Origin: Geodermatophilus tzadiensis
Lineage (GTDB): Bacteria > Actinomycetota > Actinomycetes > Mycobacteriales > Geodermatophilaceae
NCBI RefSeq assembly: GCF_003002915.1
Contig: NZ_PVTG01000007.1
Span: 124,001 to 188,000, forward strand
Length of the DNA: 64,000 nt
Direction of reading: 5' to 3'
Shown here: positions 6,837-26,904 of the stretch, in pieces
Layout: each line of letters starts with the position of its first letter
Numbering within the stretch: position 1 is the stretch's first letter
Made by a program: the position numbers and the translations under genes
Notes under the pieces: model-generated
What the model was told of the DNA's origin: nothing
Databases searched by the model: none
The model's input: the letters and a program-made list of their open reading frames with translations, nothing else

Positions 6837-7815
6837 GCGCTGCGGCATGCCGCCGCGGAGTCCTGCAGCAGCTTGCCGGGCTGCTGCGACGGAAACCCTC
6901 GTGCGTGCTCAGCCGTCAGCCGCTCCCGCCATCTCCCGTGCGTCGTCCACGTCCCACAGCGGCTCACCTCGCTCCGTGAAGCGGCTGACTGCCTTCCGGC
7001 AGCACCAGGGTTGCGGACGTACTCGCGGGCTCGGACGACGTTCCTGGCAGCGAACGATCACCCTCAGTCGCCATCACCGGCGATGTGCACGGGCTCGTCT
7101 CCCCCGAGGTGGCCCGCGAGGCAATGGCCGTCCTGCGCACCGCCCTGACCGAATGAGGGTCGCCTGCTGGTGGTCAAACCGCCCGAAGACGCTGCAGGGG
7201 CCGTTCCGGATCTCTCCGGACACGGCCCCTGAGCTGCGGTCTCCCGCCCAGTCACATTCGAGGGGTTCGCGCTGGTTCGTGACAGTGGTCCATGCCCAGG
7301 TCAACGGTCTGTGACGTCCACTGTCGTCCGCCTCGATTCGTCGCCGTTCGGAGCGCGTTGCTGTACCGGTTGCTGTCCTTCTCCCCCGCGCTCGGGCGTG
7401 TCAGTGAGGTCAGAGGCGGGCCATGATGAAGTACCCCTCACCGTGCATGGCGGGATCGGGCGGATACGGCCGCCGAGCAGGACAGCTACGACCGTCACAA
7501 CCACGCCCGGACACCCTCTGACGCGACGACGTCCACTTCGGCCGCGCTGACCAGCCGCCGGCGCTGCTGCCGTGCTGGCGATGGTCGACAGGTGACCGCT
7601 CGGTGCCCCTGAAAGGTCGACCGGCCGCCGTCTCCCCGTGCGCAACGCTGCCCGCTCGGCGTGCCGGGTCCTCCGGTGGAGAAGAGGATGGAGACGCACC
7701 GGATCGCAGGGCGGCCGGGATCGGTGTCGGCGCCGCGGGCCTCCTCGGGCGTCCTGTCGGTCGGTGGACCGCAGGGCGCCACTCAGCTCTGCGCCGACCT
7801 GCGCGAGGAGGCTCC
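6837..7815. other. Gene-poor accessory stretch with a repeat copy
   Basis: 979 bases without a convincing gene. At 7037-7156 a plus-strand frame ends in a natural-looking tail (SPEVAREAMAVLRTALTE, then TGA), which may be the remnant of a lost gene but has no start and no identifiable family. At 7195-7247 lies a 53-bp sequence found again beside tRNA-Pro. The remaining part up to the cupin gene shows nothing I can name. Confidence 0.5.
7195..7247. repeat. 53-bp direct repeat, copy 1 (contains a terminator hairpin)
   Basis: Bases 7195-7247 are identical to 26776-26828. The core is a hairpin: CAGGGGCCGT pairs with ACGGCCCCTG, with an inner TCCGGA/TCCGGA stem. The left flanks also resemble each other (CTGGTGGTCA here, GGTGGTGGTCA there). 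In copy 2 the repeat is the terminator directly behind tRNA-Pro; here no tRNA follows. The two copies are direct repeats bounding 19.5 kb. Confidence 0.85.
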
Positions 7816-9984: not shown

Positions 9985-10929
9985 TCAGCGGTGGATGTCG
10001 TGCCCCTCCAGCAGGTACAGCTCCGCCCGGGACGGCAGGCCCTCCCAGTCACCGTCGACGGTGACCGCGAAGGCGCCGGCGGCCGCCGCGGTGCGCAGGC
10101 GCTGTGCCGGCTCCGCACCGGCGAGCGTGTCGGCCAGCCAGCCGGCGGCGAACGAGTCGCCCGCGCCGACGGGATCGGTCTCGCGCACCCGGAAGACCGG
10201 CGCGTCGAGCACGACGCCGTCGACGACGGCCGTGGCGCCGTCGGCCCCGCACTTCAGCAGGACGCTTGCGGGCCCCATCTCGCTGAGCGCGCGGGCCAAC
10301 TCGACCGGCGTCCGGCCGGGCACGAGCAGCTGCGCCTCCGCCTCGGTGGCGAAGACGATGTCGGCGCGCTCGACGAGCCATCGGTACTCCGCGGCCGAGT
10401 CGCGGCCCTGCCAGAGCGACGACCGGTGGTTCAGGTCGAGCGACACCAGGGTCCCGGCCGCGCGAGCCTCACCGACGGCCAGCCGGACCGCCTCTCGCGC
10501 CGAAGTGGACAGCGCCGGCGTGATCCCGCTGACGTGAACGGCCGCGGCGGCCCGGACCGCCCCGACGTCGATGTCGGACGGTGCCAGCCGGGCTCCGGCG
10601 CCGTCCGCGCGCCGGTAGCTCACCCGTGTGGTGCCACTCGCGCGCCGCTCCTTGAACATCAGCCCGGTCGGCGCATCCGGGTCCACGACCACGCCGGAGA
10701 CGTCGACGCCCTGTCCGGCGAGGGTCTCCCGGATCAGCGCGCCGAACTCGTCGTCGCCGACCCGTCCGATCCACGCGGCGCGCACACCCAACCGAGCGGC
10801 GCCGATGGCGACGGTGCTCTCGGCCCCTGCTATCCGCAGGTCGAGGCTGCGGGCCCGGCGCAGTGGGCCGACCTGGGGAGACGACAGCGCGGCCATCGTC
10901 TCCCCGATCGCGAGCAGTCCCGGGGTCAT
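9985..10929 (-). CDS. 2-keto-3-deoxy sugar-acid kinase, PfkB family (KDG/KDGal kinase)
   Basis: 314 aa. Ribokinase-fold features: N-terminal LLAIGETMAAL, the GGAES-like GAEST at 35-39, and the ATP/catalytic motif DPVGAGDSFAAG with Asp258 as the base. It phosphorylates 2-keto-3-deoxy-gluconate/galactonate for the aldolase encoded immediately upstream, with which it overlaps by four bases (ATGA). E. coli DgoK belongs to another family, so this is a non-orthologous replacement in the galactonate route. It is the last gene of a long minus-strand operon. Confidence 0.88.
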   Translation of the reverse strand: MTPGLLAIGETMAALSSPQVGPLRRARSLDLRIAGAESTVAIGAARLGVRAAWIGRVGDDEFGALIRETLAGQGVDVSGVVVDPDAPTGLMFKERRASGTTRVSYRRADGAGARLAPSDIDVGAVRAAAAVHVSGITPALSTSAREAVRLAVGEARAAGTLVSLDLNHRSSLWQGRDSAAEYRWLVERADIVFATEAEAQLLVPGRTPVELARALSEMGPASVLLKCGADGATAVVDGVVLDAPVFRVRETDPVGAGDSFAAGWLADTLAGAEPAQRLRTAAAAGAFAVTVDGDWEGLPSRAELYLLEGHDIHR

Positions 10930-11609
10930 CGAATCGCCGCCCGCGCGGTCGCGACTGCCGCCACGACCTCCTGCGCCCGTGCCGAGAGACCGTCCTCGCC
11001 GTCCAGCGGACCTCCCGTCAGTGCGTTCCCCAGCAGCGGGCTGCCGATGCCGAGCGCGACGGCCCCCGCCGCGACGTACTCGGGGACCTGCTCGAGGCGC
11101 ACACCCCCGGTGGGGATGAACGGCACGTCGTCCAGCGGCGCGCGCAGTTCCCGCAGGTAGCGCGGGCCGCCGACGCTGGCGGGGAACAGCTTGACCGCCG
11201 TCGCGCCCGCCCCCCACGCGGTCGTGGCCTCGCTGGCGGTGAACGCACCCGGGTACCAGGACAGCCCCGCGGCGACGACGGCGGCACCGACGGCGGGCAC
11301 GGTGTCGGGGCACACGATGAACCGGGCTCCTGCATCCGCGGCGGGACCGACCTGCCCGGCGGAGCGGACGGTGCCGACGCCGACGTCCACCCGGTCGCCG
11401 AACCGGTCCCGGGTCGCCGTGATGGCAGCCAGCGCGCCAGGGGTGTTCATCGTGATCTCCAGGCAGGTGACCCCGCACGCCACCAGGACGTCGATCACGT
11501 CGCCGAGCCGCTGCCCGTCTGCGGCACGGAGGATCGCGACCACCCCGGTGTCCTGCAGCTGGTGGCTCATCGGCCGGCGGGGCGGCGAGGCGGTGGGGAG
11601 TCGGCTCAT
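10926..11609 (-). CDS. dgoA: KDPG/KDPGal aldolase
   Basis: 227 aa. Class I aldolase of the Eda/DgoA type: the base Glu51 in CLEITMNTPGAL, Schiff-base Lys140 in AVKLFPAS, and the phosphate site FIPTGGV. It would split 2-keto-3-deoxy-6-phospho-sugar acid into pyruvate and glyceraldehyde 3-phosphate. ATG 11609 overlaps the stop of the lactonase gene (ATGA); an alternative ATG at 11570 would shorten the N-terminus by 13 residues to the length of Eda. The neighbouring DgoD-type dehydratase favours the galactonate isomer as substrate. Confidence 0.88.
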   Translation of the reverse strand: MSRLPTASPPRRPMSHQLQDTGVVAILRAADGQRLGDVIDVLVACGVTCLEITMNTPGALAAITATRDRFGDRVDVGVGTVRSAGQVGPAADAGARFIVCPDTVPAVGAAVVAAGLSWYPGAFTASEATTAWGAGATAVKLFPASVGGPRYLRELRAPLDDVPFIPTGGVRLEQVPEYVAAGAVALGIGSPLLGNALTGGPLDGEDGLSARAQEVVAAVATARAAIR

Positions 11610-15011: not shown

Positions 15012-16070
15012 TCACTGGGGGATCCCGACCCGCCGCTCGCCGCTGCGGAGCTGCTGGATGACGACGGCGACGACGAGCAAGGTGCCCTTCGCGACGTTCT
15101 GCCAGAAGGGGTTGACGCCGAGGAGGGTCATGCCGTTGATGAGCACGCCGAGCAGCAGCACGGCCAACAGGGTGCTGATGATGCTGCCCTTGCCGCCCTT
15201 GAGGGCGGTGCCACCGAGCGCGGCGGCGGTGATCGCCTCCAGCTCCAGGCCTTCGCTGCCGGAGATGGGCTGGCCGGAGCCGGTACGGGCGGTGATGAGG
15301 ACGCCGGCGATGCCGGCGACCATGCCCGCGAGGGCGAAGATCGCGAGGATGTAGCGGTTGATGTTGATCCCGGCCAGGCGGGCGGCTGCGTCGTTGCCAC
15401 CGAGGGCGTAGATCTTCCGGCCGATGTCGGTGTACTTGAGCATGACGTGCAGCAGGCCCGCGACGAGCAGCAGGACCCAGATCAGCGTGGGGATGCCGAG
15501 GATCGAGCCGCGGGCCAGGAAGATGAAGATCGGGTCGCTCCCGGTGTAGCCCTGGGCACGACCATTGCTGATCAGCTGCGCGATGCCCTTGAAGGCCGCG
15601 AGGGTGGCGAGGGTGGCGATGACCGGGTTCACCCGCCCGTAGACGATGATCGCGCCGTTGACCAGGCCGCAGAGCAGTCCGATCAGCACGGCGCCGGCCA
15701 GCCCGAGGACGGCCGTCGACCCCGTGGCGGTGAAGATCATGGCCGACGCGACCGAGGCCAGTCCCGCGACGGATCCCACGGAGATGTCCAGTCCGCCGGC
15801 GATGATCACGACCGTCTGGACGACCGCGAGCAGGCCGGAGATGGCCACGGCGGTGCCGATGACGATCAGGTTCGAACCGCGGAAGAAGTCGGCGTTCTGG
15901 GAGCCGATCACCAGGATGACGAGGGCCAGGGCGATCAGCAGGCTGACGTTGGTCACGCCGACCGCCTCGAGGACGCGGTGCAGCGGTGAGGGGCGCCTCG
16001 CGCTGGGCGTCGTCGCGTCGGCGGCCGCCGTGCTCGTCTGGGCGGGAAGGGGGGCGCGGGTACCGGTCAC
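15012..16070 (-). CDS. Sugar ABC transporter permease, RbsC/AraH type
   Basis: 352 aa, with a hydrophilic N-terminal tail of about 40 residues then about ten hydrophobic segments. The motifs GGLDISVGSVAGLAS, GRVNPVIATLATLAAFKGIAQL and YALGGNDAAARLAGININRY are characteristic of the branched CUT2 permeases. It works as a homodimer with the duplicated ATPase encoded next to it; the start overlaps the ATPase stop (ATGA). Substrate by context: galactose, arabinose or a related aldose. Confidence 0.93.
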   Translation of the reverse strand: MTGTRAPLPAQTSTAAADATTPSARRPSPLHRVLEAVGVTNVSLLIALALVILVIGSQNADFFRGSNLIVIGTAVAISGLLAVVQTVVIIAGGLDISVGSVAGLASVASAMIFTATGSTAVLGLAGAVLIGLLCGLVNGAIIVYGRVNPVIATLATLAAFKGIAQLISNGRAQGYTGSDPIFIFLARGSILGIPTLIWVLLLVAGLLHVMLKYTDIGRKIYALGGNDAAARLAGININRYILAIFALAGMVAGIAGVLITARTGSGQPISGSEGLELEAITAAALGGTALKGGKGSIISTLLAVLLLGVLINGMTLLGVNPFWQNVAKGTLLVVAVVIQQLRSGERRVGIPQ

Positions 16071-17620
16071 CGGGAGGCTCCTTCTGCTGCGTGGTCGGCG
16101 ATGGCCAGGGCGAGGATGCGTTCCTCGGTGGCCTCGTCGCGGTCGAGTTCGCCGGCGATCCGGCCGTTCTGCATGACGACGATGCGGTCGGAGAGCCCGA
16201 GCACCTCGGGCAGCTCCGACGAGATGACGAGCAGGGCCACGCCGCTGGCGGCGAGCTCGTCGATGATCGCGTAGATCTCCGCCTTCGCGCCGACGTCGAC
16301 GCCCCGGGTGGGCTCGTCGAGGATCAGGACGTCCGGGCGGCGGGCCAGCCAGCGGGCCAGCACGACCTTCTGCTGGTTGCCACCGGAGAGCTTGCGGATC
16401 TGCTGTTCCGGGCTGGGAGTGCGCACCCGGAGTTGCTCCACGTACCGGTCGACCAGCTCCCGCTCCGCTCGCGCTCTGACGAAGCGCAGCCGGGAGAGCC
16501 GGTCGAGCACCGCGAGGGAGAGGTTGTCCCGCACGGTGCGGTGCATCAGGAGCGCGTCGGCCTTGCGCTCCTCGGGCGCGAAGCCGATGCCGGCGGCGAC
16601 GGCGTCGCCGGGGGTGCGCAACCGCAGGGGCCGGCCGTTGACCACGACCTGGCCGCCGCGCAGCGGCACGTCGCCGACCACGGCGCGGGCGAGTTCCGAG
16701 CGCCCGGCACCGACCAGTCCGGCGAGGCCGACGACCTCGCCGGCGTGCACGACCAGGTCGACGTCGGAGACGTCGTCGCTGGTCACGCCGCGCAGCTCCA
16801 GCACCGGTCGGCGGGACTCCGTGGAGGCCACGGGTTGGTCGGCCGCCCCGGTGTGCCTCCGCTGGAACATGGAGGAGAGGTCGCGGCCGACCATCATGCG
16901 GACCAGTTCCTCCTCGTCGGTCTCCGCGGCCGGACGGACGCCGATCAGCCGCCCGTCGCGGAGCACGGCGATGCGGTCGGCCAGCTCGAAGATCTCCTTC
17001 ATCCGGTGCGACACGTAGACGATCGCCACGCCGCTCTCCCGGAGTTCCCGGATCAGGCGGAAGAGGGACTCGGTCTCGGCGTCGGACAGCGACGACGTCG
17101 GCTCGTCGAAGGCGAGCACCGCGGTGTCGCTGGTCAGCGCCCGCAGGATCTCGATGAGCTGACGCTGCGCGGCGGACAGCCGGCTGCCGAGGGTGTCGGG
17201 GTCGATGGCGCCGGTGAAGCCGGTCCGCTCGAGGTCTGCGCGGACCCGCTCGCGCAGCGCCCGGCGGTTGAACCGGCGAGCCGTGGCGGGCAGCCGGCCG
17301 ATGTAGACGTTCTCGGCCACCGAGACGTGCGGGACGATCTCGGGCTCCTGGTAGATGACGCGGACCCCGGCGGCCATGGCGTCGGCCGGCGAGGAGAAGG
17401 TCACCGGTTCCCCGTGCATCCGGAGGGTCCCCGTGTCCGGCGGCTGGTCCCCGGAGAGGATCTTCAGCAGGGTCGACTTCCCGGCCCCGTTCTCACCCAT
17501 GAGGGCCAGGACCTCGCCGGGTCGGATCTCCAGGGTCACGTCGGTGAGCGCATGCACGCCGGCGAAGGACTTGCCGATCCCCTCGGCGACCAGCGTCGGG
17601 GGTGTGGAGGTGGTGGTCAC
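16067..17620 (-). CDS. Sugar ABC transporter ATPase with two nucleotide-binding domains (CUT2)
   Basis: 517 aa from GTG 17620, preceded by GGGAG. Domain 1 has Walker A GENGAGKST, signature LSAAQRQL and Walker B LAFDEPTSSLS; domain 2 has LVGAGRSE in place of Walker A, signature LSGGNQQK and Walker B LILDEPTRGVD. The degenerate second P-loop is normal for RbsA/AraG/XylG proteins. An upstream ATG at 17743 would overlap the binding-protein gene and add a low-complexity tail, so I prefer the GTG. Confidence 0.93.
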   Translation of the reverse strand: MTTTSTPPTLVAEGIGKSFAGVHALTDVTLEIRPGEVLALMGENGAGKSTLLKILSGDQPPDTGTLRMHGEPVTFSSPADAMAAGVRVIYQEPEIVPHVSVAENVYIGRLPATARRFNRRALRERVRADLERTGFTGAIDPDTLGSRLSAAQRQLIEILRALTSDTAVLAFDEPTSSLSDAETESLFRLIRELRESGVAIVYVSHRMKEIFELADRIAVLRDGRLIGVRPAAETDEEELVRMMVGRDLSSMFQRRHTGAADQPVASTESRRPVLELRGVTSDDVSDVDLVVHAGEVVGLAGLVGAGRSELARAVVGDVPLRGGQVVVNGRPLRLRTPGDAVAAGIGFAPEERKADALLMHRTVRDNLSLAVLDRLSRLRFVRARAERELVDRYVEQLRVRTPSPEQQIRKLSGGNQQKVVLARWLARRPDVLILDEPTRGVDVGAKAEIYAIIDELAASGVALLVISSELPEVLGLSDRIVVMQNGRIAGELDRDEATEERILALAIADHAAEGASR

Positions 17621-17680
17621 GTGCTCTCCCTGCCCGGTGCGAGCGGGTGGACGGTGGGTGGGCTGGTGGAGGGGGTGGGA

Positions 17681-17714
17681 CCCGGCAGCGCCCGGGAGGT
17701 CGGGCGCCGCCGGG
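17681..17714 (-). terminator. Intercistronic stem-loop behind the binding-protein gene
   Basis: CCCGGCAGCGCCCG (17681-17694) pairs with CGGGCGCCGCCGGG (17701-17714) with one mismatch and a 6-base loop. It stands between the stop of the binding-protein gene and the ATPase start. Such structures commonly stabilise the upstream message or reduce read-through, giving more binding protein than membrane components. Confidence 0.7.
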
Positions 17715-17720
17715 AACCGG

Positions 17721-18761
17721 TCAGGTGCAGACGACGCCGGCATCCTCGTAGTTGTCGGCGGTGACGATCTCCGTGTTCGCGAACGTCTCGGCGGGCAGGT
17801 CCTCGCCGTCCTGCAGCGCCTGCACCATCTCCTCGACGGCGGTGCGGCCCACCTCGGCGCCGGAGATGAACAGCGCCGACCTCATGCCGGTCGCCTCACC
17901 GGCCGCCCACGGCTTGCAGGCGAGGTAGGCACCGAGCCCGACGCCGTTGATGTCGTCGGGAGACACGCCGCTGTTCTGCAGGGCGGTCACGACCCCGTCG
18001 ACGTTCTCGTCGTTGCAGCCCCAGACGATCCAGTGCTTCACACCCGGGTTGGCGGTGATCACGGCACCGGCCTCGTCCTGGGCACCAGTGGCGGAGTTGT
18101 CGGTCCCGACGTCGATGACCTCGACCTCGCCGCCGCCGTTCGCCTCGAAGGTGCTCCTGGCCCCCTGCACGCGGTCGGCGCAGACCGACAGGTCCTGCTT
18201 GTAGGCCGAGATGACGCGCGTGTCCGCCGCGTTCCAGCCGGACTCGGTGAACAGGCGGGCGGCTTCCTCGCCGACTGCCTCGCCCATCTGGGTGCCGTTG
18301 AAGCCGACGAACGGCACGGCGTTGCCGGAGCCGTCCTCGATGCTGTCGTCACTCGCCAGCAGCGGCACGCCCGCGTTGGTCGCCGCCTGGGCGACGGTGG
18401 GCCCGATCTGCTGGTCGGGGACGACGATGATGATCCCGTCCACTCCGCGGGCGACCTCGGTGTCGATCGCGCTGATGGCCTTGTTCGCGTCCGTACCGAC
18501 GTCGACGACGTCGAGCTCCACGCCGAGCTCGTCGGCCGCCTCCTGGGCGCCCTGCGCCTGGTCGACGAAGTACTGCTGATCGCCCTGCTTCTGGATGTAG
18601 GCGATGCGCAGCGCGCCGTCGTCGGAACCACCGCCAGAACCGCCACCGGAGCCGGCCTCCTGGCCGGAGGAGCACGCGGACAGGACTGTCGCCAGTGCCA
18701 GGCCGGCGACGACCGAGGCGCGCGCCAGGGGGCGGCGCCGGGTTGAGGACAGCATCTTCAC
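17721..18761 (-). CDS. Sugar ABC transporter substrate-binding lipoprotein
   Basis: 346 aa. A lipoprotein signal peptide ends at LSAC (Cys30), followed by a Gly/Ser linker. The body is a periplasmic-binding-protein-like domain, with IAYIQKQGDQQYFVDQAQGAQ, VDGIIIVVPDQQ and the hinge segments; ADRVQGARSTF and the closing VTADNYEDAGV resemble arabinose/galactose-binding proteins. GTG 18761 or ATG 18755 can serve as start; GGAG precedes both. It is the first gene of the minus-strand operon, behind the shared promoter region. Confidence 0.92.
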   Translation of the reverse strand: MKMLSSTRRRPLARASVVAGLALATVLSACSSGQEAGSGGGSGGGSDDGALRIAYIQKQGDQQYFVDQAQGAQEAADELGVELDVVDVGTDANKAISAIDTEVARGVDGIIIVVPDQQIGPTVAQAATNAGVPLLASDDSIEDGSGNAVPFVGFNGTQMGEAVGEEAARLFTESGWNAADTRVISAYKQDLSVCADRVQGARSTFEANGGGEVEVIDVGTDNSATGAQDEAGAVITANPGVKHWIVWGCNDENVDGVVTALQNSGVSPDDINGVGLGAYLACKPWAAGEATGMRSALFISGAEVGRTAVEEMVQALQDGEDLPAETFANTEIVTADNYEDAGVVCT

Positions 18762-18796
18762 TCCATCTCCGAGCCTGCGGCCCAGGTCACAACGTT

Positions 18797-18811
18797 TATG
18801 CTATTTTCATA
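18797..18811. promoter_or_regulatory. Candidate operator in the AT-rich divergent promoter region
   Basis: TATG (18797-18800) and CATA (18808-18811) form an inverted repeat around ctatttt, in one of the very few AT-rich patches of the window (18791-18815). It lies between the divergent binding-protein operon and dgoD. The position and short palindrome fit binding by the GntR/FCD regulator of the operon; this assignment is inference. Confidence 0.45.
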
Positions 18812-18917
18812 CCAATGCGTGCGGCGGAGTGTCAACTACGCCACACTGAGTCGGCCTCCGTCCCGAGCAGGACCGGAGGCGTGGTCCGGCGCCGGCAGAG
18901 TGCAGAGGGGACGGTTC

Positions 18918-20063
18918 GTGAAGATCACCCGCCTGGAGACGTTCCTCGTCCCACCCCGCTGGCTGTTCTTGCGCGTGGAGACCGACGAGGGAGTGGTGGG
19001 CTGGGGCGAGCCGGTCGTCGAGGGCCGCGCGCACACGGTGGCGGCCGCTGTCGACGAGCTGGCCGACGACCTCGTCGGCGCGGACGCATCCCGCATCGAG
19101 GACCTGTGGCAGACGATGACCCGCGGTGGCTTCTACCGCGGCGGCCCGATCCTCTCCAGTGCCGTCGCCGGTATCGACCAGGCCCTGTGGGACATCAAGG
19201 GCAAGGCGCTCGGTGTCCCGGTGCACGACCTCCTGGGCGGGCCGGTGCGCGATCGCGTGCGGATGTACGGCTGGGTCGGCGGGGACGAGCCCGCCGAGGT
19301 CGCGGCCGGGGCGGCCGAACGGGTGGCGGCGGGGTACACGGCCGTGAAGATGAACGCCGGCGGTCGCCTGCGCTCACTGGAGTCCGTGAGCGAGATCCGG
19401 GCCGTCGTCGACCGCGTGGCCGCGGTGCGGGAGGTGCTCGGTCCGGATCGAGACGTCGCCGTCGACTTCCACGGCCGGGTCTCCCCCGCCCTCGCTCGCG
19501 TGCTCTGCCAGGAGCTCGAGCCGCTGCGGCCGCTGTTCGTCGAGGAGCCCGTAGTACCCGAGCTCCTCAGCGAGCTGTCGCGGATCTGTGCCTCGACGAC
19601 GGTGCCGATCGCGACCGGGGAGCGGCTGTACTCGCGGTGGGACTTCCGCACGGCGCTCGACAGCGGGATCGCCGTCGTCCAGCCGGACCTGTCCCACGCC
19701 GGCGGGATCTCCGAGTGCCGGCGCATCGCCGCGCTCGCCGAGACCTACGGCGTGGCCCTCGCACCCCACTGCCCCCTGGGGCCGATCGCGCTGGCGGCCT
19801 GCCTGCAGGTGGACCTGGCCAGCCCCAACGCGCTGATCCAGGAGACCAGCCTCGGCATCCACTACAACGTCGGCGCCGACACCCTCGACCACCTGCTCGA
19901 CCCGTCGGTGTTCGAGTTGCGGGACGGCTTCGTCGAACGGTTGACCGCCCCGGGCCTGGGGATCGAGGTGGACGAGCAAGCGGTGCGCACCGCGGCGGCC
20001 ACGGGCCACCGGTGGCGGTCCCCCGTCTGGCGGCACGCCGACGGCAGCCTCGCCGAGTGGTGA
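18918..20063 (+). CDS. dgoD: D-galactonate dehydratase
   Basis: 381 aa from GTG 18918. Enolase-superfamily enzyme that converts D-galactonate to 2-keto-3-deoxygalactonate. It is strikingly like E. coli DgoD along its whole length: PPRWLFLRVETDEGVVGWGE, FYRGGPI, AGIDQALWDIKGKALG, DFHGRVS (Asp183 metal ligand, His185), FVEEPV (Glu209), GERLYSRWDF (Glu235), QPDLSHAGGISE, APHCPLGPIALAACLQ (His284) and the terminal WRHADGSLAEW. All catalytic residues are present. It is transcribed opposite to the rest of the pathway from the shared region. Confidence 0.96.
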   Translation: MKITRLETFLVPPRWLFLRVETDEGVVGWGEPVVEGRAHTVAAAVDELADDLVGADASRIEDLWQTMTRGGFYRGGPILSSAVAGIDQALWDIKGKALGVPVHDLLGGPVRDRVRMYGWVGGDEPAEVAAGAAERVAAGYTAVKMNAGGRLRSLESVSEIRAVVDRVAAVREVLGPDRDVAVDFHGRVSPALARVLCQELEPLRPLFVEEPVVPELLSELSRICASTTVPIATGERLYSRWDFRTALDSGIAVVQPDLSHAGGISECRRIAALAETYGVALAPHCPLGPIALAACLQVDLASPNALIQETSLGIHYNVGADTLDHLLDPSVFELRDGFVERLTAPGLGIEVDEQAVRTAAATGHRWRSPVWRHADGSLAEW

Positions 20064-20092
20064 GCCGTCCGTCAGGCGATCCCACCGACTCC

Positions 20093-20698
20093 TCACCTGG
20101 CCAGTCCGAGCAGGCAGGCGGCGGCGCCTCCGCGGATGGCGTCGGTGGTGGCGACGTCGAGACCGGCCGCCTCCAGCCGACCGACGGGGTCCTCGACGCC
20201 CGTGTCGCGGGGGAGGTCGCTGCCCAGCGTCACCTGGATGGGACGCATGACGTCGACGAGGTGGTGCAGCTGACCGGGCGGGTGGACGAGCGAGTCGACG
20301 CCGGTGCACCGCGGCAGCTGCTCGGTGGTGTGCGCGTCCGGCCGGCCTGACCATGCATGGTCGGCGCGCACGACGTAGCCGGCGAGGTAGCCGCTGTCGC
20401 ACGCCGACCGGATCCGCAGCCGCGGATGGCGCTCGAGCAGGCCGGCGAAGACGGTTCGCAACAGCGCCAGCGCCGCCCCGGTCGGGTGCCCGACCGAATG
20501 GGACGAGTTGTGGGCGTCCAGTCGCTCCCCCAGCGCCCAGCCCTCCGGGTGGATGAGCACCGCGGTGTCCAGCTCCTCGGCGGCGGCCCAGGAGTCGGCC
20601 ACAGTCGGATCGTCGAGCTCGACCCCCGGCCCGGCCGGGGTGGAGATGCGCTCCCCGCGCACTCCGTGTCCGCGCAGCGCGGGCTCGAGTTGTTCCAC
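20093..20698 (-). pseudogene. Truncated amidohydrolase-2 (ACMSD-like) remnant
   Basis: About 200 codons that read as the C-terminal two thirds of an amidohydrolase-2 family protein: VELDDPTVADSWAAAEEL, VLIHPEGWALGE, LLERHPRLRI, VDVMRPIQVTLGSDLP and the end DAIRGGAAACLLGLAR. The N-terminal HxH metal motif is absent, and the usual AHGGGY reads ACDSGY, so a metal His is lost. A GTG at 20698 opens the frame but no full-length start exists. It lies between dgoD and the MFS gene as a leftover of a larger gene. Confidence 0.7.
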
Positions 20699-20781
20699 AG
20701 CCGGCTCCGATCTCCAGTCGTCCTCCGGTGACCGCCGGCGGGCATCGCAGACCGCCGGCGGTCGAGGGCAGGTGGCTCGGG

Positions 20782-22059
20782 TCAGGCCGACGCGCGGTCC
20801 CGGACGGGGTCGACCGCCAGGGCGAAGACCAGCCCACCGAGTGCGAGCACGAGCCCGAAGACGAGGAAGGATGCGGTGTAGCCGCTCCCCGGGGCGGCCC
20901 CGGTGTCGATGAGACGACCGGCGATGAGCGGACTGATGACGCCGGCTGCTGCGGACGCCACCGTGATCATGGCCAGCGCACCGGCTCGGTGGGCCGCCTC
21001 GAACAGTTCCGACACGACCGGGAAGGTGACGGTGTTGACCGTGACCGAGAAGCCGTAGCCGAGGATGACTGCGGCGACCGCTACGACGGGCGCGTCCAGT
21101 AGCGGGATCGCGGCGAGCACGAGACCTGACGCCAGGAGGCAGATGCCGCCGACCCGACCGCGGCCGACTCGCGCAGGGGCGCCGCGGCGCATGATCCGGT
21201 CGCCCAGTCCGCCGATGAGGAACAGTGCACCGAGCCCGGCGACGCTGGGGAGTGCGAACAGCGTGCCGGAGGCGGCAGCGGAGAAGCCGAGCGCGTTCTG
21301 GAAGTAGGACGGCAGCCAGGTGAAGACGACCGCGGCCAGTGCGCCCTGGGCGAAGGTGGCGAACAGGCAGGCGAGCATGGTCGGGGTGAGCAGCCCGCGC
21401 ATCCAGCTGCGATCGCTGCGCGCCGGAGCGGTCGGGTCGGTGCCGGCGTGCGGGCCCGTCCGACCGAGGAAGTACCACACGGTCAGCCACACCAGGGCAA
21501 CGACACCGATGGCGACGAACCCGATCCGCCAGCCGAGAGTGACCACCAGCAGGGAGATGACCGGCAAGAGGGCGATCTTGGAGAACGACGCGCCGCTGGT
21601 GATGATGGCGGCGGGTAGGCCGCGTCGGCTGGCAGGGAACCAGGAGTAGGCGGCGGTGTGAGCCAGCGGTACGGCCGGGCCCTCGGCGGTACCGACCACG
21701 ACCCGGCTCGCGATGAGCATCAGGGCGCCCCCTGCCAGGGCTGCTGGGATCTGACCGAGGGTGATCAACGCGCCACAGCCCAGGAGCACCGCACGGGTCG
21801 ACACCCGACGCCCGGACAGCGCGATCGCCAGGCAACTGACCATGGTGAGGAGATAGGTCGCGCTGCTGATCAGCCCGTAGGTCGTCGCGGACATGCCGAA
21901 CTCGGTGCGGATGGGAGTGGCGACCAGGCCGAGCAGGCCCTTGTCCAGGAACACCAGGACGTGCGCGCCGGCGGCGGCGGCGGTCACCGCCCAGGGCATC
22001 CATGCTCGGCCGGTGTCGGTGGTGCCGTCCGCAGGAGGACGGCTCAGGTCGGTCGTCAT
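20782..22059 (-). CDS. MFS transporter, anion:cation symporter type
   Basis: 425 aa from ATG 22059, preceded by GAGGAG. Twelve hydrophobic segments in two halves. WFPASRRGLPAAIITSGASFS and the charged loop after TM6 resemble the ACS branch, which carries sugar acids and aromatic or hydroxy acids. The cytoplasmic loop GDRIMRRGAP and the signature VVGTAEGPAVPLAHTAAYSWFP fit that branch. With the adjacent SDR, TIM-barrel and LysR genes it probably imports the substrate of that small pathway; galactonate is also possible because dgoD is near. Confidence 0.85.
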   Translation of the reverse strand: MTTDLSRPPADGTTDTGRAWMPWAVTAAAAGAHVLVFLDKGLLGLVATPIRTEFGMSATTYGLISSATYLLTMVSCLAIALSGRRVSTRAVLLGCGALITLGQIPAALAGGALMLIASRVVVGTAEGPAVPLAHTAAYSWFPASRRGLPAAIITSGASFSKIALLPVISLLVVTLGWRIGFVAIGVVALVWLTVWYFLGRTGPHAGTDPTAPARSDRSWMRGLLTPTMLACLFATFAQGALAAVVFTWLPSYFQNALGFSAAASGTLFALPSVAGLGALFLIGGLGDRIMRRGAPARVGRGRVGGICLLASGLVLAAIPLLDAPVVAVAAVILGYGFSVTVNTVTFPVVSELFEAAHRAGALAMITVASAAAGVISPLIAGRLIDTGAAPGSGYTASFLVFGLVLALGGLVFALAVDPVRDRASA

Positions 22060-22129
22060 CGGGTACTCCTCATCGAGAGCCACGGGTCCGGGTCATCCCG
22101 GCCACGGATTGAGTGCGGTGCGAGCTGGT

Positions 22130-22183
22130 GCGCGAGCAGGACTGCTCAGGGCGAAGGCGCGAGCAGGACTGCTCAGGGCGAAG
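22130..22183. repeat. 27-bp tandem duplication, two copies, spanning a stop codon
   Basis: Bases 22130-22156 are repeated exactly at 22157-22183. Each unit contains the inverted repeat GAGCAG-GA-CTGCTC and the codons LAPSP plus TGA of the SDR reading frame. The duplication therefore lies over the 3' end of the minus-strand SDR gene and places two identical small hairpins behind it. Confidence 0.85.
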
Positions 22184-22922
22184 GCGCGAGCTGCGCGCCG
22201 CCGCACACGTGCAGGACCTCGCCGGTGATGAAGCCGGCTCCGGGCGAGGCCAGGAAGCCGACTGCTCCGGCGATGTCGTCCGGAGTGGCGAATCGCCCCA
22301 TCGGGGTCATCGCCAGGTGCTTGGCCTCGAAGGCCGCGTACTCGGCTTCGGTGCGTCCAGTCCGGGTGAACGGTGTGGCGACCATGCTCGGAGCGACCGC
22401 GTTGACGGTCACGCCCAGCGGCGCGAACTCCAGGGCCAGCGAGCGGGTCAGTCCCACGACCCCCGCCTTGGACGTCACGTAGGCCACCGGCCCCCCCGAG
22501 AGCCAGGTACGCGAGGTGATGTTGACGACCCGCCCACCGGTGCCGGTGCTACGCCACAGGCCCGCGGCGGCCCGACACAACGCGGTCGGTCCCCAGACGT
22601 TGACCGCCATCACGCGCTCCCAGGTCTCCCGCTGCAAGGAGTCCAGCTCGCGAGGCGCGGTGACCGCGGCGTTGTTGACCACGACGTCGATGCGGCCGAA
22701 CCGCTCACCCACGTCGTTGACGAACGCCTCGACCGAGGCGTCGTCGGCCACGTCGAGCTCGTGGGCCTGTGCACGGTCGATGCGGTCGGCCTGCGTGCGG
22801 GCGCCGTCGACGTCGCGGTCGGCCAGCAGCACCACGTCGGCCGACGCGCTCAGGTGGGCCCCGATGGCCGCGCCGAGCCCGCCGGCGCCGCCGGTGACCA
22901 CGGCGACCCGCTCGGCCCTCAT
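22173..22922 (-). CDS. SDR-family oxidoreductase
   Basis: 249 aa with VVTGGAGGLG (8-17), NNAA (83-86), Ser137, Tyr148 and Lys152 (YVTSK), and the usual GFLASPGAGFITGEVLHVCGG end. The catalytic set is complete. ATG 22922 overlaps the stop of the TIM-barrel gene (ATGA), so the two are co-translated. Probable role: NAD(P)-dependent oxidation or reduction of a hydroxy acid or cyclitol in the same pathway; the substrate is unknown. The 3' end carries the 27-bp tandem duplication. Confidence 0.87.
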   Translation of the reverse strand: MRAERVAVVTGGAGGLGAAIGAHLSASADVVLLADRDVDGARTQADRIDRAQAHELDVADDASVEAFVNDVGERFGRIDVVVNNAAVTAPRELDSLQRETWERVMAVNVWGPTALCRAAAGLWRSTGTGGRVVNITSRTWLSGGPVAYVTSKAGVVGLTRSLALEFAPLGVTVNAVAPSMVATPFTRTGRTEAEYAAFEAKHLAMTPMGRFATPDDIAGAVGFLASPGAGFITGEVLHVCGGAQLAPSP

Positions 22923-23779
22923 GCCGTCACCATCGCGGGCTCTGCCCGGTCCAGGACCTCGAGTCCTCGACGCAGCGCCTCGACCGGAGCGAGGTCGGCA
23001 GTGAAGTCCTCGAGCGAGAGCCAGCCTCGGTAGCCGCCGCGGTGCAGTGCCCGGCGCAGGGCGACGACGTCGAGCAGGCCGTCGTCCATCGGAGACCACT
23101 GCAAGACCCAGGGGACACCGGGCTCGGAGGGAACGTAACGGGCGTTCTTGACGTGTACGTGTGCCAGGTGGGCGCCCAGGAGCTCGATCGCGGTGTCGTG
23201 GTCCTCGTACCCCTCCACCAGCAGGTTCCCGGCGTCGTAGATCGCACCGATCAGAGCGGGGTCAGCCCCGTCGAGGATCCGGGCGGTCAGCGAAGCGCTC
23301 GGGCAGATCGAGCGCTGGTGCAGCTCGAGCAGCGCCCGCACCCCGTGTCGCGAGGTGATCCTCTCCAGCTCGTCGACGAACCGACGGGCGGCCTGTGCCT
23401 GCTCCGACCACGCCGTCCCATCGCGCCACGGCGCCCGGAAACGGAACCAGCCGACGCCGGCCTCAGCCGCGGCGGCGGCTGCGCGACGAGCAGTCGCCAC
23501 GTCGCCGGTGTCGACATAGGTGTCCAGGCCGACGACCTCGAGCCCGGCCCGGCGACACCGTTCCACGGTTCTGGCGACGTCCTCGAAACGCAGGGTGCAC
23601 CGGTTGTCGGTGAAGACGTCGGACCCTGCACCCGGCCCACGATCGTCGACCCGCCACTCGATCCCGGTCGCACCCGAGCGCAGGACCGTCTCGATCGCTT
23701 CCTCCGGGGTGTGCCCGAAGAGCATGATCGAGCACACGCCCAGAGGGTTCACGGTCACGTCACCGTCGTTGTCAGCCAC
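22919..23779 (-). CDS. Sugar phosphate isomerase/epimerase-like TIM-barrel protein
   Basis: 286 aa of the xylose-isomerase-like (AP endonuclease 2) superfamily. Metal ligands are visible in order: LLELHQ (Glu), IYDAGN (Asp), HVHVKN (His) and WLSLEDF (Glu). Family members act as hexulose epimerases, inosose dehydratases or 3-dehydroshikimate dehydratases. The last possibility is noteworthy because a dehydroquinate-synthase-like gene lies 1.2 kb away, but nothing in the sequence decides it. GTG 23779 is chosen; later GTG codons are possible. Confidence 0.82.
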   Translation of the reverse strand: MADNDGDVTVNPLGVCSIMLFGHTPEEAIETVLRSGATGIEWRVDDRGPGAGSDVFTDNRCTLRFEDVARTVERCRRAGLEVVGLDTYVDTGDVATARRAAAAAAEAGVGWFRFRAPWRDGTAWSEQAQAARRFVDELERITSRHGVRALLELHQRSICPSASLTARILDGADPALIGAIYDAGNLLVEGYEDHDTAIELLGAHLAHVHVKNARYVPSEPGVPWVLQWSPMDDGLLDVVALRRALHRGGYRGWLSLEDFTADLAPVEALRRGLEVLDRAEPAMVTA

Positions 23780-23834
23780 GTCACAAGTGAACGGTGGCGC
23801 CCGTCGCCCCGTCCAAGACCAGGTACGACACCCT

Positions 23835-23857
23835 GGCCATACCCGCTGGGCATGGCC
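23835..23857. promoter_or_regulatory. Long interrupted palindrome, probable LysR operator
   Basis: GGCCAT (23835-23840) and ATGGCC (23852-23857) are perfect inverted arms, and inside them CCC and GGG also pair, so 18 of 23 positions are symmetric. It lies between the divergent TIM-barrel gene and the LysR gene, 25 bases ahead of the LysR start, the standard place for an autoregulatory LysR site. The ATG inside the right arm is therefore unlikely to be the regulator start. Confidence 0.65.
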
Positions 23858-23881
23858 CGCCCGTGCGACGACACTGGAGCG

Positions 23882-24784
23882 GTGGAGCTCCGCCACATGC
23901 GCTACGTCCTGGCCGTCGCCCGTCACGGGTCCTTCGGCAGGGCAGCGGAGGCGTTGCTGATCGCCCAGCCCTCGCTCAGCCGTCAGGTCCGTGACGTCGA
24001 GAAGGAGCTGGGCGAAGAACTGTTCGTTCGCGGAGCGAGCGGGGCCACGGTCACCGCGGCCGGGCGGGTGTTCGTCGCTCACGCTCGGCAGGTGGTGGCC
24101 ATGGCAGATTCGATCGGGGAGGTGGTGCGGGCCGAGACGCCGCCGCGCGAGCTCGTCCAGATCGGTCTACCCCCCGGTCTGTCGACCGAGTGGACGTCCG
24201 AGGTCGCGCGCGGACTGCTGCGCCACGTTCCCGGCGCTGACGTGCGATTCGTCGAGGCCGGGAGCGCCGAGCAACTACGACTGCTCACCCAGGGGCGCTT
24301 GGACGTGGCCGTGGTCCATCAGCTCCCGCCGGCTGACACCTGGTCCGCCCTGCTCGCGAGCGACCCACTGGGTGTTGCCGTGCGCCCGGACCACCCGCTC
24401 GCCAGCGCCGCCTCCTACCGGCTCGCCGACCTCGACCAGCTGCGGGTCCTGGTCCACTCCCGCGACCAGATCCCCACCCAACAGGACGGGATACTGGCCG
24501 CCGCGAGTTCGTCCGGCATCAGCCCGGTGTGGATCTTCGCCCGGTTCGTCGAGCACTCGCGGGCCTGCGCCGAGGCCGCGGAGGCCGACGCGGTGCTGGT
24601 GAGCTCGCACACCGCGGTGCGGCAGCTGCCCGACTGGGCGTGGCGTCCGGTCCAGGACCTCGGCCAGCCCATGAACACCTGGGTGGTCCGGCGCAACGAC
24701 GCCCGCGACGTCGTCGCGTTGGTGATCGGCGTGGTCAGGGCGTCCAGAACTCGACCGGATGCCGAGTCCCAGCGCGAGGACTGA
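23882..24784 (+). CDS. LysR-family transcriptional regulator
   Basis: 300 aa from GTG 23882, the standard length. The N-terminal helix-turn-helix is clear (ELRHMRYVLAVARHGSFGRAAEALLIAQPSLSRQVRDVEKELG, about residues 2-44), followed by the effector-binding domain starting near 90 (VQIGLPPGLSTEW). It is divergent from the isomerase/SDR/MFS genes and most likely activates them when the imported substrate or an intermediate is present. An ATG at 23852 would add ten residues but lies in the palindrome. Confidence 0.9.
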   Translation: MELRHMRYVLAVARHGSFGRAAEALLIAQPSLSRQVRDVEKELGEELFVRGASGATVTAAGRVFVAHARQVVAMADSIGEVVRAETPPRELVQIGLPPGLSTEWTSEVARGLLRHVPGADVRFVEAGSAEQLRLLTQGRLDVAVVHQLPPADTWSALLASDPLGVAVRPDHPLASAASYRLADLDQLRVLVHSRDQIPTQQDGILAAASSSGISPVWIFARFVEHSRACAEAAEADAVLVSSHTAVRQLPDWAWRPVQDLGQPMNTWVVRRNDARDVVALVIGVVRASRTRPDAESQRED

Positions 24785-24994
24785 CGCGAGCCGGCGTCCT
24801 CACACGAGACTCAACCGGCACGCCGGTCCACCACGCGGTCGTCCACACGGCGGGGTCGCCCTCGACATGGACGTCGCGAGCACGAGCGAGCTCGACACCC
24901 GGATGTCGCACGTCGCCGGGGATGTCTCGTGACCCACCGCTGATGCTCGAGCAGCAGTGATCCGCGCTGGGGTCGCTGCGTCAGACTGCCAGGT

Positions 24995-26581
24995 GTGGCG
25001 ATGATCGTGCTGGTCGGTTTCATGGGAGCGGGCAAGACGACGGTCGGGCACGTCCTGGCCGAGCGGCTGGGCACGCCCTTCGTCGACAGTGACGTCTACA
25101 TCGAGCAGCAACTCGGCCGCAGCATCGTCGACGTCTTCGCCGCTGAGGGAGAAGAGCACTTCCGGGAGATCGAGCACCGGTCGATCAACGAGTTGGTCCG
25201 TGGCTCCGACGCGGTCCTGGCGCTCGGCGGCGGCGCCCTGGGGGATCCGCGGACACGAGCCATCCTGCGCAAGACCACCGTCGTGTACCTACGGGTCGAC
25301 TACGACGAGGCCCTGTCGAGAGTCCACCAGGACCTGTTCCGCCCCATGCTGCAGCGCGCCGATCTCGACCAGACCTACTCACGGCGCCTGCAGGCCTATG
25401 CCGAGGTCGCAGCGATACAGGTGGACACGAACGGACGCCGTCCCGACGCCGTCGCCCTCGACGTCCTGAGGGAGCTCACCCGCCTGCCCAGCACTCCACC
25501 GGGGACCTCCAACATCCTCGTGACTCCCGTCGGCGGCACCTACTACGCGCATGTCGGCAGGCAACTGCTCGACCTGGCGGGCACCTTGTTGCCCACCTCG
25601 ACGGACATCGAGCAGGCGGTCATCGTGGAATCCGATCGGGACACGAGCACCGCCGACCGCGTGGCCGCAAGCGTCACCGCCCAGGGCATCTCGGTCACAC
25701 GAGTGCCGGTTCCGGACACGGAGGCGGACAAGGATCTCGCCGCGGTTCGCCATGTCGCCGGTCAGTTGGCCGACGTCGCGCTGCACACGAACGACCTGGT
25801 CGTGGCTGTGGGCGGGGAGCCGGTCTGCGACCTCGCCGGATTCGTCGCCGCCACCTTCAACCGAGGCACCCGGCTGGCCCTGGTGCCCACCACGCTCGTC
25901 GCCCAGGCCGATTCCGCCATCGGTGGCAAGAACGCGATCAACATGCCCCAGGGGCGCAATCTCATGGGGACGATCCACCAACCCACGGTCGTCATCGCCG
26001 ACGTCACCACCGCATGTGCCAACGTGGAGCGTGGCTTCCGAGCCGGATTGTCCGAGATCGCCAAACACGCGCTGATCAGCCGGAGCGACCTGCTCCACGT
26101 TCTCGAAGAATCATCCGAAGGCGCCTGTTCAGCCGACGTCGACGCTGTGCACCAGCTCGTCAGCCGCAGTCTCGAGATCAAGGCCGACATCGTCAGTCGG
26201 GACGAGCGCGCGACCGCGGAGCGGATCGTTCTCAACTACGGCCACACCTTCGGTCACGCGATCGATCTGGTGACAGGGCAAGTGGAGGACCAAGGTCAGT
26301 CGGTGTCGCTGGGCATGATGGCCGCCGCCCATCTCGCCCGCCGCCAGGGACGTGTTGGCGACGACGTGGTCGACCGGCACCGGCACCTCCTGTCGAGGCT
26401 GGGACTGCCGACCACGGGGCGCTTCGACCTGGAAGCCATGAAACGCGCGTGGCTGCGGGACAAGAAGTACCGGCACGGGGTCCGCTTCGTCGTCCTCAAC
26501 GGGTTGGGACGAGCCGAGACGGGGGTCACCGCCTCGACCGACATGCTGGCGGACGTGCTGGACGACCTGGCGAGGCGCTGA
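24995..26581 (+). CDS. Shikimate kinase / 3-dehydroquinate synthase-like fusion
   Basis: 528 aa. Residues 1-165 are a shikimate kinase: GFMGAGKTT (8-16), DSD (31-33), the FREIE and GGGALGDPRTR loops, and RPML. Residues about 170-528 are a dehydroquinate-synthase fold: VPTTLVAQADSAIGGKNAIN, GLSEIAKHALI (Glu ligand), LNYGHTFGHAI (His ligand), RDKKYRHGVRF. Two deviations stand out. The NAD loop normally GGGVvGD reads GGEPVCD (273-279), and the third metal ligand in LHGEAV is replaced, reading QGQSV (Gln433). AroKB fusions are known, for example in Thermotoga. This accessory copy may be a divergent sugar-phosphate cyclase. GTG 24995 or ATG 25001 starts it. Confidence 0.87.
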   Translation: MAMIVLVGFMGAGKTTVGHVLAERLGTPFVDSDVYIEQQLGRSIVDVFAAEGEEHFREIEHRSINELVRGSDAVLALGGGALGDPRTRAILRKTTVVYLRVDYDEALSRVHQDLFRPMLQRADLDQTYSRRLQAYAEVAAIQVDTNGRRPDAVALDVLRELTRLPSTPPGTSNILVTPVGGTYYAHVGRQLLDLAGTLLPTSTDIEQAVIVESDRDTSTADRVAASVTAQGISVTRVPVPDTEADKDLAAVRHVAGQLADVALHTNDLVVAVGGEPVCDLAGFVAATFNRGTRLALVPTTLVAQADSAIGGKNAINMPQGRNLMGTIHQPTVVIADVTTACANVERGFRAGLSEIAKHALISRSDLLHVLEESSEGACSADVDAVHQLVSRSLEIKADIVSRDERATAERIVLNYGHTFGHAIDLVTGQVEDQGQSVSLGMMAAAHLARRQGRVGDDVVDRHRHLLSRLGLPTTGRFDLEAMKRAWLRDKKYRHGVRFVVLNGLGRAETGVTASTDMLADVLDDLARR

Positions 26582-26775
26582 CGCGCGAAGCGGCGACGCC
26601 TTCGACCGGTAGCCCACCGCGCTACGACACCGAGCGGCCCCGCTCTCCGTCACCGCCGGACCGGCCACACGGAGCCGCCGCGGACCTCGACGCGGCGCTC
26701 GCCGCAGTCCGTCGTGGCCAGCTCAGGGTCGGATGACGGTGACCAGGTGGTGGTCACACCGTCCCGACAAGCCGT

Positions 26776-26828
26776 CAGGGGCCGTTCCGGATCTCTCCGG
26801 ACACGGCCCCTGAGCTGCGGTCTCCCGC
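26776..26828 (-). terminator. Terminator of tRNA-Pro; 53-bp direct repeat, copy 2
   Basis: On the minus strand the sequence begins three bases behind the tRNA-Pro 3' end. CAGGGGCCGT/ACGGCCCCTG forms the outer stem (26776-26812), with TCCGGA arms inside. The whole 53-base block is identical to 7195-7247. Here it has a clear job as the tRNA terminator. Confidence 0.75.
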
Positions 26829-26830
26829 TG

Positions 26831-26904
<74 letters not shown>

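Follow-up and report, generated by a model that had tools for sequence, protein, structure and literature searches.

The window, by which we mean the whole 64,000-nucleotide stretch of DNA analysed here, lies on contig C7 of a source genome of 4.87 Mb. Between positions 24995 and 26581 it encodes one protein of 528 amino acids in which a shikimate kinase is fused to a dehydroquinate-synthase (DHQS) domain. The reading frame stays open from the GTG at 24995 to the stop at 26581, and the ATG at 25001 is a start of equal merit. The fused gene is accompanied by a LysR gene and a divergent TIM-SDR-MFS run, and the accessory block of SDR, TIM barrel, MFS and LysR genes described in the initial annotation is recovered by profile matches. 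The features that concern us are these:

18798–20063, forward strand: galactonate dehydratase (NF010624, 625 bits, cut-off 311)
20782–22083, reverse strand: MFS transporter (top NCBIfam match the D-galactonate subfamily, 134 bits, cut-off 395)
22173–22973, reverse strand: SDR oxidoreductase, start picked by eye
22919–23800, reverse strand: xylose-isomerase-like TIM barrel (AP_endonuc_2), start picked by eye
23825–24784, forward strand: LysR-type regulator, upstream of the fused gene and on the same strand, start picked by eye
24995–26581, forward strand: fused gene, shikimate kinase plus DHQS-like domain, 528 aa, GTG 24995 or ATG 25001
25001–25492, forward strand: kinase half, residues 3–166, all 14 kinase positions checked intact
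25499–26578, forward strand: DHQS-like half, residues 169–528, top solved match M. tuberculosis DHQS
25811–25831, forward strand: changed NAD loop GGEPVCD, residues 273–279, Glu275 standing at the third Gly of GGG
25955–25957, forward strand: Arg321 at the Lys161 position (alignment of 75 rows)
26054–26056, forward strand: Glu354, metal ligand kept (Glu194; alignment of 75 rows)
26243–26245, forward strand: His417, metal ligand kept (His271; alignment of 75 rows)
26291–26293, forward strand: Gln433 replacing the third metal ligand (His287; alignment of 75 rows)
26830–26904, reverse strand: tRNA-Pro(GGG), adjoining the fused gene

The fusion proposed in the initial annotation is confirmed by Pfam, with SKI (140 bits, against a cut-off of 22.1 bits), DHQ_synthase N (114 bits) and DHQS_C (112 bits) all above their cut-offs, and the protein falls below the cut-off of the AroB equivalog model TIGR01357 (273 bits versus 305). 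In the AlphaFold model of the fused protein, built on 16 rows, the mean pLDDT is 89.1 and no residue is under 50; the DHQS-like half is predicted to fold well. With this model, the top Foldseek match is 3qbd, the M. tuberculosis DHQS (TM 0.93 by target length, 32% identity), and DOI synthase and ValA rank 21 and 50, both below DHQS.

The catalytic residues of shikimate kinase, which we take to be the P-loop, D32/D34, R58, GGG, R117 and R136 in their respective roles, have counterparts in the kinase half in the P-loop, D31/D33, R57, GGG78-80, R116 and R131, and the P-loop, aspartates and substrate Arg had been correctly read from the outset. All 12 members of the clade described below likewise keep the 14 positions, apart from a Ser at Thr16 in one member, as do all 17 of the separate AroK rows compared, a set that includes one native gene three times; among the 30 other fusions, single departures are seen at five of the 14.

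For the synthase half, 19 DHQS positions were tabulated in 75 hand-picked rows, namely the 12 clade members, whose motifs were already known before the table was built, 30 other fusions and 33 separate AroB proteins, two of these being the same native gene. Position numbers and roles, that of Lys161 included, we take to be those of A. nidulans. The window protein differs at three sites: Gly116 is Glu275, Lys161 is Arg321 and His287 is Gln433. Twelve active-site residues are kept (Asp279, Arg290, Lys312, Asn322, Glu354, Lys357, Lys396, Arg410, Asn414, His417, His421 and Lys490). The initial annotation had counted two changed hallmark sites, the NAD loop GGEPVCD and the metal segment, and both stand; the third, Arg321, where 63 of 63 comparison rows have Lys, had been missed. 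Within the metal segment, EDQGQSV, the replacement of His by Gln433 is upheld, all 63 comparison rows carrying His there, but the accompanying change of Glu to Gln435 is no hallmark: the position varies, with E, A, D, N, H, S, I, R, L, M and also Q (L025) found in His-keeping domains. The Glu, His, His metal triad of AroB is therefore incomplete in the window protein, its third member being Gln433, and the GGG of the NAD loop and Lys161 are absent, with GGE and Arg321 in their place. Sequencing error or chance is ruled out for these sites because relatives at 98% and 86% identity have them too, Gln433 recurring in G025 (98%) and, as QGESV, in L004 (86%).

DHQS is described as requiring a divalent metal and as oxidizing its substrate via bound NAD (PMC7144000), and a double mutant of the Aro1 DHQS at the metal His is reported to be inactive (PMC9074039). 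In the related iron-alcohol-dehydrogenase family, a GGGS motif is said to touch the coenzyme pyrophosphate (PMC5125639).

Relatives of the fused gene are numerous, a scan of genome contigs giving at least 574 matches, of which the best 80 were retained; among the matches listed, the nearest named relative is that of Blastococcus sp. CT_GayMR19, Geodermatophilaceae. In three sets of sampled whole genomes, centres included, matches were found in 13 of 148, 8 of 198 and 19 of 249 genomes, and 3, 5 and 2 of these, respectively, were members of one clade that stands apart by score (at least 569 versus at most 242 bits in the 148-genome set, and at least 545 versus at most 414 bits in the other two). 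We count 12 clade genomes (G000, G025, G026, G027, G028, G029, G148, G168, G256, G298, G340 and G354); G555 seems to be G026 again and was counted once. The clade set and the control set used below are both samples. The 12 form one group in the tree of the DHQS half (75 rows, SH-aLRT 100), and again after the removal of catalytic columns, in 64 rows with 11 omitted (bootstrap/SH-aLRT 100/99). In the tree of the kinase half (169 columns) they also group, though support is lower, at 79, or at 96 with one Arsenicicoccus kinase included. By these trees the 12 are a well-supported actinobacterial clade. In Arsenicicoccus bolidensis (L061, about 10001–10990, in a frame from 9662), a single frame preceding aroB encodes two tandem shikimate kinase domains; of these, the first is similar to the clade kinase half and keeps RPM, and the second reads SSSM in place of the usual RPL.

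The pattern of loss within the clade is partly shared and partly particular to branches. None of the 12 members keeps Gly116 or Lys161, five lack Gly115, Asp119 is Tyr in four, and His287 is lost in the other eight (Gln in three, Asp in four, Val in one), the alignment at this last site lying beside a gap in L110–L113. L113 further lacks Lys152, Asn162 and Lys356, and L098 lacks Glu260, Asn268, His275 and Lys356. In contrast, the 63 comparison rows keep Gly116, Asp119, Lys161 and His287, save Gly116 in L057, where it is Glu; their other exceptions are Gly114 to Ser in four Fibrobacterota rows and one gap at Lys356, position 260 being left out of this count as it varies widely. Seven pocket residues (R130, D146, E194, K197, K250, R264 and H271) are kept in all 12 clade members. 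In the 64-row tree the sister of the window's group is a set of four rows in which His287 is retained (99/84), L109–L113 falling outside, so His287 has most likely been lost at least twice within the clade. That the branches lost different catalytic residues, in addition to a NAD-loop change common to all, fits lost catalysis better than one new chemistry. Outside the clade, L057 (10001–11566) is a distant fused protein whose NAD loop reads GGEEVID and whose genome has a second DHQS; its terminal branch is the longest in the DHQS tree, and it may represent a separate early instance of this process.

Whether the source genome has a separate aroK and aroB was raised by the initial annotation, which would have given up its reading had there been no other aroB. 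Both genes are present (G000:C3:240600-242107). The same holds for DHQS across the clade, each of the 12 genomes having a second DHQS that is complete at 18 of 18 checked positions. As a control we used 32 genomes whose fused protein lies outside the clade, hand-picked across lineages: in 30 the fused protein is the one DHQS, and only two (G193 and G031) have two. The difference in possession of a second DHQS (12/12 versus 2/32) has a Fisher p of 4e-9, which overstates independence since the rows are related. For the kinase, 8 of the 12 genomes (G027, G028, G029, G148, G256, G298, G340 and G354) have no SKI match above 100 bits besides the fused protein, a count in which completeness is unstated for genomes reached through loci. 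Weaker SKI matches of 22–36 bits, at or above the 22.1 cut-off, occur in G148, G298 and G340. In G298 the contig is 5.43 Mb and the genome is given as 5.4 Mb, which makes the absence of another strong kinase there fairly firm. The other four genomes (G000, G025, G026 and G168) have a separate strong kinase. Within the genus, separate aroK and aroB are found in 26 of 26 genomes, and the fused gene in addition in two.

The synthase half is under purifying selection. Between the window and L004, dN/dS is 0.13 for the kinase half (dS 0.43) and 0.18 for the DHQS-like half (dS 0.53). In five of the six pairs among L110–L113 it is 0.17–0.25 for the DHQS-like half, 0.10–0.27 for the fused kinase half and 0.06–0.08 for the adjacent true aroB of the same genomes; deeper pairs, with high or saturated dS, were not used. 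The DHQS-like half is thus under a constraint that is weaker than that on a live DHQS and comparable to that on its own kinase half, and because the latter has similar values, relaxation is not confined to the DHQS-like half.

The position of the fused gene differs among clade members. In five of 12 (L007 and L138–L141) it lies directly before aroB, occupying the place that aroK has in the native locus of the source genome (L095), which reads aroC, aroK, aroB and then efp and nusB. In L007, aroC is just upstream of the fused gene; the same search found none upstream in L138–L141. In L005, aroB follows about 4.7 kb after the fused gene, with aroC between.

A conserved accessory pathway around the fused gene was looked for and not found: when 13 other window genes were sought by tblastn (1e-6) near the fused gene in ten related loci, several of them on short contigs or cut by contig ends, only a generic ABC ATPase was found, in L136. 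G025, which shares the whole window block, was set aside from this search. L004 has near its fused gene a TIM-barrel gene of the same Pfam family as that of the window. Against solved structures the window TIM barrel matches IolE (E 8e-5) and the SDR matches BbsD, FabG-like and other SDRs, with no specific relative for either, and we therefore make no claim of a dehydroshikimate dehydratase or of cyclitol metabolism.

Several further observations concern the surroundings of the gene. Ten window proteins from a sugar ABC permease to the fused gene (15012–26581) are 97–100% identical to those of G025, whereas identity is 89–94% for the Cyd and hydrolase proteins further right, so the block has perhaps been exchanged recently; its third-position GC is below that of most genes to the right. 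Integration at tRNA-Pro with a duplicated tRNA end was rejected, as the repeat, found at both 7157–7247 and 26747–26872, is a terminator-like hairpin beside the tRNA and not the tRNA itself. In L004 (3763–10445) about 5 kb separate the fused gene from the tRNA-Pro region seen in the window, and a PhaC-like gene and a class I DAHP synthase are located in this interval. An amidohydrolase-like frame at 20093–20845 in the window covers positions 91–288 of a 289-position Pfam profile and is probably a truncated gene. Citrate-synthase-like genes, 52–53% identical to the copy in L007, occur about 4 kb or less from the fused gene in three clade members, L006 (5424–6275), L007 (15076–15936) and L136 (9646–10434).

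The combination of a seemingly live kinase, synthase lesions that differ between members, a constant second complete DHQS and a kept fold fits a pseudoenzyme domain on a working kinase. We consider it probable that the fused protein is a working shikimate kinase carrying a maintained, catalytically dead DHQS-like half, and that in the source genome it is a spare copy. The kinase half would convert shikimate and ATP to shikimate 3-phosphate, and the C-terminal half, a DHQS domain in origin, would have ceased to form dehydroquinate. The presence of a separate aroB would have freed the synthase half from catalytic duty; the NAD loop and Lys161 would then have changed in all members, and branches would separately have lost Asp119 or the third metal His. 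The half would stay folded most likely as the pairing, stabilizing or ligand-binding part of the kinase, and since DHQS domains are described as forming pairs (PMC9074039), kinase pairing may be the simplest role. In the source genome the gene would be an extra copy, besides the native aroK-aroB, in an accessory block. An origin from a bifunctional fusion is weakly suggested: L008, a bifunctional fusion, adjoins the clade in the DHQS tree (83/44), the separate aroB L058 coming next (99/92), and stands elsewhere in the kinase tree. Several points run counter to the pseudoenzyme reading as a whole. The values of dN/dS far below 1 and the seven kept pocket residues are equally compatible with a different activity; a metal might still be held by Gln433 or Asp432, and the maleylacetate reductases, which belong to the same superfamily, are reported to function without one (PMC5125639); the fused kinase half of L110–L113 is about as relaxed as the DHQS-like half; and a separate aroK is present in 4 of the 12 clade genomes, the source genome included.

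A more specific role for the dead half, as a ligand sensor gating the attached shikimate kinase, seems to us rather unlikely. NAD handling and redox chemistry would be gone and most of the sugar-acid-phosphate pocket retained, and the ligand could be DAHP, dehydroquinate or, given the galactonate dehydratase nearby, a 2-keto-3-deoxy sugar acid.

It is unlikely that the half is still a dehydroquinate synthase with altered metal or cofactor handling, in which Gln433 or Asp432 serves as ligand. The twelve retained residues (Asp279 to Lys490) speak for it, as do the changed NAD loops of two comparison lineages: three of the four Fibrobacterota rows with Ser at Gly114 (L030, L037 and L059) come from genomes with a single DHQS found, and L057 shares Glu at Gly116. 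However, three sites are altered together in the window protein, all 12 clade genomes have a complete second DHQS, and the inactive Aro1 metal-His double mutant (PMC9074039) argues against activity.

The initial annotation suggested a novel type of sugar-phosphate cyclase paired with its own cyclitol kinase, in which another sugar phosphate would be cyclized and the product then phosphorylated. The accessory block, the TIM barrel of the same family near the L004 gene, the separate aroK and aroB, purifying selection and the retained pocket are all in its favor, but the proposal went unsupported and we regard it as very improbable: a profile of five clade members scores 275 bits with DHQS, 142 with DOI synthase and 110 with ValA among solved structures (a comparison of scores, not of tree positions), the NAD loop is altered in 12 of 12 with lesions that differ per branch, 8 of 12 genomes have no other strong shikimate kinase, and no specific window neighbor was found by tblastn in the ten loci compared. 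That the gene is an acquired copy decaying without function in the source genome is equally improbable, for while it is redundant with the native aroK-aroB, occurs in only two of 26 genus genomes and has a truncated amidohydrolase nearby, its 528-codon frame is open and its two halves are constrained relative to L004.

If the pseudoenzyme reading is correct, the clade is a recognizable group of “bifunctional” AroK-AroB proteins that have probably lost the second of their functions and for which that label is probably wrong, and automatic annotation and metabolic models would miscount DHQS genes in these actinobacteria. The clade would also be a natural test of why dead enzyme domains persist: dead and live forms occur in the same genomes, adjoining in five cases, so that the constraint on each is directly comparable. 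Should the dead half prove to control the kinase, this would be a new mode of shikimate-pathway regulation. By the titles and abstract openings of the hits listed, we found no AroK-AroB protein with a dead DHQS half in a collection of open-licence papers, a body that subscription papers mostly fall outside.

In domain order, length and fold, the window protein is like the bifunctional AroK-AroB fusions (PRK14021 and PRK13951), of which L008, the sole DHQS of its genome, is an example, its position beside the clade in the DHQS tree being weakly supported. It differs from them in its scores (274 and 226 bits, where the cut-offs are 565 and 560), in its altered NAD loop, Lys161 and metal His, and in the second complete DHQS of its genome. 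Maleylacetate reductase provides a parallel for the loss of a metal ligand in the same fold; however, all subfamilies of its family are said to retain the GGGS motif for the coenzyme (PMC5125639), and in the window protein GGG is lost. In Candida albicans Aro1, the DHQase domain is reported to be inactive, with Dqd1 able to perform the step (PMC9074039), and here too a seemingly dead domain is retained in a fused shikimate-pathway protein while a separate gene would do the step, although the Aro1 case concerns DHQase rather than DHQS, in a fungus, and with activity measured, where ours is read from sequence. The AROM-related fungal repressors QutR, GaaX and TanX, which a working hypothesis holds to be catalytically inactive and still able to recognize the inducer, likewise have shikimate-pathway domains and a gene adjoining a regulator gene (PMC10512348). 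QutR resembles the C-terminal half of AROM (PMC10512348), and the window protein differs in that its kinase residues are intact; were its dead half a sensor, it would be a bacterial counterpart of these fungal proteins.
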